From Nitrospira sp. (lineage in GTDB: Bacteria; Nitrospirota; Nitrospiria; Nitrospirales; Nitrospiraceae): DNA of 64,000 bases. The notes beneath the pieces were generated by a model. It saw only the letters and a list, made by a program, of their open reading frames with translations, was not told the origin of the DNA and searched no databases. Numbering within the stretch: the first letter of the stretch is position 1; every line of letters starts with the position of its first letter. Of this stretch, positions 48,674 through 50,231 are shown piece after piece. The stretch is from contig JARFXQ010000003.1 of assembly GCA_029194725.1 (NCBI GenBank), positions 124,001-188,000 of the forward strand. Reading direction: 5' to 3'. Made by a program: the position numbers and the translations under genes.

Positions 48674-49060
48674 AGAGAGTGCTCGGCAGTGGGGCCGGAC
48701 CTCGGCCTCTGCATGATGCGACCGATCCCCACCGCTATTGATCCTTGTCAACCTGCCCGCACACGCCTCTAAGGCTGCGTCGAAGCGCCGCAAAATTGGC
48801 GTGCGCAGTATCAATCACCAATTGTGATGCCACAGCCGCCATGCCGACGCCGAAGATCCAACTCCACTACCGAGCAAAGGGGAAAGAACAGAGAGGGGAA
48901 GCAGCGCGATGTGTTGTTTTCCCCCCACGCCTCCACGATTCGCTAACTGCGGATCAACGAGGCTGTGAGCGAGTCATTGGATTGAGGACAAACCTTCCCT
49001 CCTCCCTGCTCGAGAGATTTTTGTTGATTACACTGTAGGACATTAGGAGAATCTGCCACC
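48674..49060. other. Intergenic region after secA
   Basis: About 390 bases. A short GGCCG/CGGCC hairpin just after secA (near 48693-48707) lacks a T-run. A 97-codon open frame is present but has no start signal or recognisable composition. I see no gene here. Confidence 0.55.
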
Positions 49061-49791
49061 GTGGAAAAGGAACAGATCCTCAGAGAACTTCGACACCTAG
49101 GGAAACAACGTGGTGGGTACATCAGCCTCGATGCCCTTCTCGCAGCACCTGGCTTGAAGCAGCATAACTTGTTGGGGAAATACTGGGCAACGTGGAATGA
49201 GGTTGTCGTGGAGTCGGGTCTCAACACAGCCTAGTTTTTTCGCCCAAAAACTGAAGAGGATTTTGTTCTTGGCCCTTTCGCAAATCTCATTGAGCGCCTA
49301 AAGAAGTGGCCTACCCAAACCGACCTCCTTCTTGAACGACATCGAGAAAGCTCTTTCCCGAGTCTCCCAGTTATTCGCCGCTTCAAGAACTCTCATAATT
49401 TTGTCTCCAAACTAGTGGACTACTCTGAAACGCATGGCCTGACTGTCGCAGCCAAGATTGCGGTGGAGCGCTTAGCAAGCGAGAAGATAGAGCCACCAAT
49501 TGTTGGGAGTGAGCCTATATTGGGCTATGTTTATTGGGCTATGTTTAATTGATGCGCTCGGGCCGTCGATCCAAGATTGGTCACACGACCTCTCCTTCCC
49601 GTCGTCACCGCGAAGTACGGCTTGATTTGCCTGATCCCACAATGCTGGTTCACTCGATTCCAACAGATGATCCTTTCGGCATCGAATCTTATTGGCATCA
49701 TCGCTTCGGCGCTAAACGCATCCGGGAGACTGAGTTCTTCAAACTCGACGCATCCGTCGTTGCGGCATTTAAGCGCCGCAAATATCAATAA
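49061..49791 (+). pseudogene. Decayed GIY-YIG/T5orf172-type nuclease gene
   Basis: A broken gene of about 240 codons. The first part (from GTG 49061) reads as a small repeat domain of the homing-endonuclease-associated type (GKQRGGYISLDALLAA, WATWNEVVVESGL), stops at TAG 49232-49234 and continues in frame through VIRRFKNSHNFVSKLVDY to EPILGYV. A tandem 14-bp duplication then shifts the frame; the rest (49549-49791) encodes RSGRRSKIGHT, IPTDDPFGIESYWHHRFGAKR and FFKLDASVVAAFKRRK, typical of T5orf172/Mug113 nucleases. Removing one repeat copy restores the frame exactly, leaving one further TAA. At least three lesions show that the gene is dead. Confidence 0.85.
49520..49547 (+). repeat. Tandem 14-bp duplication that breaks the nuclease gene
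   Basis: TTGGGCTATGTTTA occurs twice without a gap (49520-49533, 49534-49547). The 14-base length causes the frameshift in the pseudogene. Confidence 0.9.
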
Positions 49792-50177
49792 CGCCAAGAA
49801 CTCGATACCTCTTAACGTTGAAGACCCAAGAGATGGGGTTTGATTGCGACCTACCGTCTCTTAAAGTGCTGCGGCTTCCAATCTCCCCTTCCCTCTTCCG
49901 TTGCGAGGAATCATTGCGCCTTGCGAGTGAACTGCCGGCAATTTGGATATCGTTCTGTCGAGTAGCTGCGGCTCACCCCTTAAGTGAGTGGCATCGATGT
50001 CCGGCGTTCCGTTCATGCGTGCATGGGACGGAACTAGTTTCGATGCCAAGCAGCTATGAGACGTAGAACGACCAAATTGCTGGCCCGGAAACGAGCGAGG
50101 CCCAGCGATTCCTCCTCTACATCCTCCTGATCTCACCTTGACTTAACGCTCTTCCGAAGGCTACTCTACACCCCCTT
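49792..50177. other. Intergenic region with a large palindrome
   Basis: About 390 bases between the pseudogene and the terminator before the methyltransferase gene. Overlapping open frames on both strands (82 and 91 codons) are explained by the palindrome and have no start signals. The notable content is the 151-bp multi-stem element, listed separately. Confidence 0.6.
49934..50084. repeat. 151-bp multi-stem imperfect palindrome
   Basis: Nested arms, outside to inside: 49934-49946 with 50072-50084 (13 bp, one G-T), 49951-49957 with 50064-50070 (7 bp, one G-T), 49963-49969 with 50050-50056 (7 bp), 49990-49997 with 50040-50047 (8 bp), 50006-50012 with 50028-50034 (7 bp), and a small ATGC/GCAT apex. 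This could be a MITE, a structured RNA, or a folded recombination site. No target-site duplication or attC core is evident. Confidence 0.8.
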
Positions 50178-50231
50178 CGACACCCAGCGATGGGCAGGAT
50201 AGTGCCCATAAGCTAGGGGTGTCGCTTTTTT
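50178..50231 (+). terminator. Intrinsic terminator before the methyltransferase gene
   Basis: An outer 8-bp stem (50178-50185 with 50217-50224) encloses a 7-bp hairpin (50190-50196 with 50203-50209) and is followed by C and six T (50226-50231). It stops transcription coming from upstream, 30 bases before the chosen start of the next gene, or acts as an attenuator for the midA-nuo transcript. Confidence 0.75.

Follow-up and report, generated by a model that had tools for sequence, protein, structure and literature searches.

HEARO and omega RNAs and the msd of retrons are structured, dispersed non-coding sequences linked to mobility. For the ERIC and NEMIS repeats, a hairpin in the mRNA has been proposed to control processing, stability or operon balance. 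The attC biology with which we compare our results below is partly general knowledge. ERIC/IRU/RU-1 and other intergenic MITEs (Correia/NEMIS, RUP, RPE) are 100-200 bp long, lie dispersed between genes and would give transcripts folded into one long hairpin (PMC2229807), and REP/BIME sequences are extragenic imperfect palindromes which are recognised as single-strand hairpins (PMC2817692).

The palindrome studied here lies in a window (the whole stretch of DNA that was analysed, 64,000 nucleotides of a Nitrospira sp. contig), and it is one copy of a dispersed family of elements of roughly 210 letters in Nitrospira and its relatives. This element resembles the ERIC-type MITEs in its size and in its multiple dispersed intergenic copies, but several members of that group end in TA and duplicate their target, whereas the termini of our element vary and no duplication was seen; it also differs in the compensated turnover of its stems, in its conserved unpaired letters and in its lineage. 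Its terminal inverted repeats are present in each copy, with a sequence specific to each subfamily and not the conserved one of a MITE. With attC sites and CALINs (PMC9892861, in part) it shares a long imperfect hairpin beside a stop codon, a folded antisense strand, direct arrays that include toxin-antitoxin genes and a structure more conserved than the sequence, yet it is about three times as long as the attC sites of these genomes, is devoid of R boxes and lies outside their arrays adjacent to IntI. REP sequences are about 20-40 nt long, with a GTAG/GTGG head and a high copy number, whereas our element has 210 nt and few copies, and GTAG is absent from its near-invariant letters. An association with RAYT proteins was considered and rejected: Y1_Tnp was not found in the carriers G033, G376, G358, G269 and G420, and is present in non-carriers. 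From the HEARO and omega RNAs and from the retron msd the element differs in that Rfam has no match to the window copy at E up to 5, and in that neither IscB nor TnpB nor a reverse transcriptase was recognised beside the inspected copies. Since for each of ERIC-type MITEs, REP and attC the element lacks defining features that we tested for, we file it under no named family: by these features it is an unnamed variant among the dispersed palindromic elements, and not an attC site, a REP or a typical MITE.

The hairpin in the window

The sequence-only reading had described five nested stems, closed by 13-bp arms, in 151 bp (49934-50084). The stems are real: the 13-bp outer arms (49934-49946 / 50072-50084) are 92% complementary, and the 151 nt folded as RNA reach -79.5 kcal/mol, against a mean of -46.8 for shuffled sequences (z -8.5; 0 of 200 shuffles reach it), with a similar excess on the opposite strand and under DNA parameters. 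The simple nesting and the 151-bp limit had to be given up. The 151 bp are the inner region of a larger element, as pairing continues outward through three stems of 8, 3 and 7 bp (49905-49912/50107-50114, 49914-49916/50103-50105 and 49918-49924/50095-50101) to 49905-50114, that is 210 nt with -110.7 kcal/mol, and homology between non-orthologous copies stops near these limits. With its side hairpin (49971-49989) the structure is a branched one. From the outside inwards one meets the three outer stems, the 13-bp arms, further stems, the side hairpin at a three-way junction and the apical hairpin. Our covariance models cover a conserved core (49950-50071); inside it, the segment 49990-50047 holds the inner stem (49990-49997/50040-50047), the apical hairpin (50006-50034) and an internal loop whose unpaired letters are nearly invariant, TGT.CGA on one side and AGTT on the other. 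All these features are given on the + strand, which is the better-folding one. The structure in the window is genuine and larger than first reported: it is a branched hairpin of 210 nt.

The element has secA on one side and a Methyltransf_28 gene on the other, with NADH dehydrogenase genes after the latter. A few tens of bases further on from the right end of the element comes a conserved, promoter-like stretch that belongs to the methyltransferase gene and lies in a region outside the element (50115-50218, +), which sequence comparison shows to be kept with or without it. The promoter-like motif itself (TTGACTT ... TACTCT, 50139-50170), ahead of the methyltransferase and NADH dehydrogenase genes, is kept in nearly all the inspected relatives, whether the element is present or not. 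The earlier remark that transposase, integrase and reverse transcriptase are all missing nearby holds for the immediate neighbours (SecA, a nuclease remnant, the Methyltransf_28 protein and NADH dehydrogenase chain 3). A retron msr-msd was rejected, as there is no reverse transcriptase in the neighbourhood in the window. Of the resemblances proposed earlier, the general neighbourhood of MITE-like elements or folded single-strand sites stands, and the retron does not; the features of a standard MITE and of an attC site are likewise missing.

The nuclease remnant (GIY-YIG type, MUG113/T5orf172; 49061-49791, +) ends 113 bp before the true left end of the element. A relation between the two, as suggested earlier, is unsupported because the genome G092, which lacks the nuclease, keeps the left arm and its flank at this site, and because a nuclease of this kind was recognised beside none of the other inspected copies; the decayed gene looks unrelated to the element. 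The interval between secA and the methyltransferase gene (48674-50218 in the window; counterparts L040, L210, L072 and L073) differs in content among genomes: it holds the decayed nuclease in the window, while G007 has a weakly SIR2-like protein there, G237 has a PIN gene, and other genomes have other sequence. It looks like an insertion hot spot.

A dispersed family with a conserved fold

By BLAST, the genome of the window has no second close copy of the element. The related genome G007 has a copy 78% identical, in the same intergenic region, inverted and beside secA, and between these two copies 10 base pairs differ on both sides and are still paired. A first covariance model made from the two yielded 32 copies in the genus; a second one, built from 31 copies, found 54 copies in 33 of the 79 genus genomes. 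Three belong to the genome of the window: the window copy, one at C21:53321 and a truncated one after a UDG gene at C18:25330. A single copy, which had been named as what would speak against the element, is therefore not the case. Over the phylum, 68 of 396 genomes have matches, nearly all in the same family (Nitrospiraceae), with copy numbers that are undercounted since nine candidates were scored per genome; six genomes scored more fully have 7 to 18 copies each. Copies outside orthology are 83-93% identical over about the length of the element: two copies of G220 are 93% identical, copies of G220 and of G376 87-89%, and homology stops near the element edges.

Weak model matches outside the Nitrospiraceae (G194, G282 and G319, all of family f17, genus g84; at most 3 per genome) may be due to chance or come from distant relatives. 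A scan of genome contigs with an exact pattern fitted to one subfamily gave six matches, all in Nitrospira or Nitrospiraceae. One BLAST match, in G027, showed no unusual folding and was discarded. The covariance models of Rfam 15 (4227 families) have no match at E up to 0.5 across 20 loci bearing copies. BLAST against plasmids and phages found no match to the element, nor did one narrow exact pattern in viral contigs, and a search of open-licence papers found no description of it. The family is apparently undescribed so far.

The check by covariation that had been proposed gave a strong signal. In the alignment fitted to the model, 37 of the 42 pairs show changes on both sides, including all 6 pairs of the side hairpin (helix 3), and 90.8% of the cells pair; none of 500 shuffles reaches 37, and sliding the pair partners abolishes the signal. 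Such an alignment is biased towards its model, and a plain MAFFT alignment served as an independent check: RNAalifold predicted 27 pairs there, 20 of them with compensatory changes. With a wide alignment it recovered the inner helices only, because the outer arms misalign between subfamilies. The unpaired letters of the internal loop under the apical hairpin and of the junction are 90-100% conserved.

As for the folded strand, 29 of 30 copies have a + strand that folds more stably than the complementary one, and the mismatches in paired columns are G.A in 42 cases vs C.T in 8. In the core, G.U pairs outnumber A.C in the paired columns (57 vs 39), which is non-significant (p 0.08), and core alignments folded per strand show no excess of G.U over A.C; in the full-length orthologous sets the ratio is 39:18 at purC and 38:7 at the UDG locus. 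With moderate confidence, we take the + strand to be the folded one, as RNA or as single-stranded DNA alike.

Orthologous copies at purC and at the UDG locus differ at 7-41 positions and have folding energies near each other, while neutral drift simulated with the same number and kind of substitutions at random sites gave markedly less stable sequences in nearly every comparison. As the orthologous copies are far more stable than this simulated drift, the result argues for a fold maintained after insertion, with the caveat that copies were detected through a structure model, so that decayed copies, which do exist, are under-sampled.

Gene ends, empty sites and arrays

The copies follow genes such as purC (SAICAR synthetase), a UDG-superfamily gene, sucC, a TENA-family gene and secA. 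The right end abuts the stop codon of a gene read towards the element in 30 of 64 copies, the left end in 2 of 64, and random positions do so in 6.5% of cases (reading frames of at least 120 codons ending 20-75 nt beyond the core were accepted; orthologous sites are counted separately, so that there are fewer independent events). The stop codons fall mostly 30-48 nt past the core, which is the right boundary of the element, and in the copies that abut one, the strand that folds better runs antisense to the gene. The window copy does not follow this pattern, as it is not at a stop codon. At the other end, ahead of the left arm, lies a pyrimidine-rich tract (49875-49904, + strand, in the window): a 20-mer of at least 85% pyrimidine is found there in 50% of the copies vs 4% of the controls. 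Copies of differing subfamilies occur at the same gene ends. In G016 (L102), the stop codon of purC is apparently lost and the frame continues into the element before stopping.

The sites are not occupied in all species. At the methyltransferase locus the element is missing from most of the inspected related genomes and half-deleted in two, G092 keeping the left arm only and G028 the right half only; at the purC and UDG loci, sites are occupied, truncated or empty in related species. In many genomes without the element, another long palindrome (GAAGGGGACGGCGGGATCGTCCTC ... GAGGACAACCCCGCCGTCCCCTTC, about 125 nt) lies just past the purC stop (L105, L107, L108, L112, L113, L117-L121, L126, L128-L130). 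Direct repeats in the flanks of the element are not above those of mismatched flanks, with boundaries uncertain by a few bases. As neither a target-site duplication nor an exactly reconstructed insertion supports it, the case for mobility is built on the polymorphism of the sites and on the similarity of the copies.

Most copies are solitary. Several lie 0.3-1.3 kb apart, mostly in the same orientation (direct arrays), and the genes between or beside them include PIN, BrnT/CopG, Gp49-like/addiction antidote and DUF2442 genes. Two copies of G376, inverted to each other, enclose a STAND NTPase together with an AAA_13 protein of a candidate defence family; the copy in G007 adjoins the weakly SIR2-like protein. 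Some copies are tandemly duplicated (L211 at 98173/98410, L215 and L216), with flanks matching at 100% and periods of 237, 366 and 336 bp; these may be assembly artefacts. Full integron integrase genes (TIGR02249, over the cut-off) exist in the genome of the window (L247, G000:C14:66604-67548) and in several relatives (L249, L250, L252, L254), and the relatives have ordinary attC-like sites of 56-78 bp (GCCTAAC..GTTAGGC) near integrase genes or fragments.

Mobile element or resident RNA

The reading we favour, to which we give an even chance, takes the copies as a family of small mobile elements of the Nitrospiraceae that are non-autonomous: one strand, once folded, would be recognised in trans, and the fold would be kept in place. 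The element would consist of the pyrimidine tract followed by the branched hairpin of about 210 nt. A putative trans-acting enzyme would recognise a single folded strand, either as single-stranded DNA or as its RNA, by the unpaired letters that hardly vary, and would insert it in one orientation beside gene ends. The fold would be kept either because it is useful in place or because only folded copies remain mobile. No enzyme among those considered could be tied to the element: the presence of Y1 transposases does not follow that of the element, and only some carriers have full integron integrases.

The strongest competitor, possible though clearly less probable, is that the element is resident, as a structured RNA or a 3'-end element that functions where it lies: the folded strand may be transcribed antisense to the neighbouring gene, or an mRNA hairpin may govern processing, stability or operon balance. 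The stability held against the neutral expectation by the orthologous purC and UDG copies, the near-invariance of the unpaired letters and the placement at 3' ends of genes, including within the purC-purQ gene cluster, speak for this reading. However, the presence of the element is patchy, with empty and half-deleted sites in related species, and differing subfamilies sit at the same gene; in the purC cluster it is the antisense strand that folds better, and the next gene starts directly behind it, so that no obvious promoter is left.

Two readings as a cassette site appear unlikely to us. One is an integron-independent second kind of single-strand-folded site: in the Nitrospiraceae, a putative recombinase would act on the 210-nt hairpin, placed at stop codons, and so capture toxin-antitoxin and defence genes and shuffle them. 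The other, doubtful as well, is an attC-like single-strand-folded recombination site of a cassette system capturing such genes: the geometry is the same, beside a stop codon with the antisense strand folded, several of the direct arrays enclose toxin-antitoxin genes, and integron integrases occur in the genome of the window and in relatives. But RYYYAAC or GTTRRRY stands at the required end, the base of the hairpin, in none of the 64 copies, the integrons of these genomes have ordinary short sites, the IntI-adjacent regions with those sites have no model match except one copy 3.4 kb from an IntI fragment (G213), and solitary copies are in the majority. A conventional MITE, moved as double-stranded DNA by a cut-and-paste transposase via terminal inverted repeats, would account for these repeats, the small size and the dispersal of the copies, but is very improbable given termini that vary among subfamilies, target-site duplications not above chance and conserved letters that lie in internal loops and not at the ends.

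The ecologically important nitrifiers of this family carry a family-wide structured element for which we found neither a curated model nor a description. Its covariation is unusually strong, and its position follows a sharp rule (right end on the stop codon, folded strand antisense). If it is mobile, as in the reading we favour, it points to a not yet described enzyme recognising folded single strands; if it is resident, it would be a new class of structured RNA.
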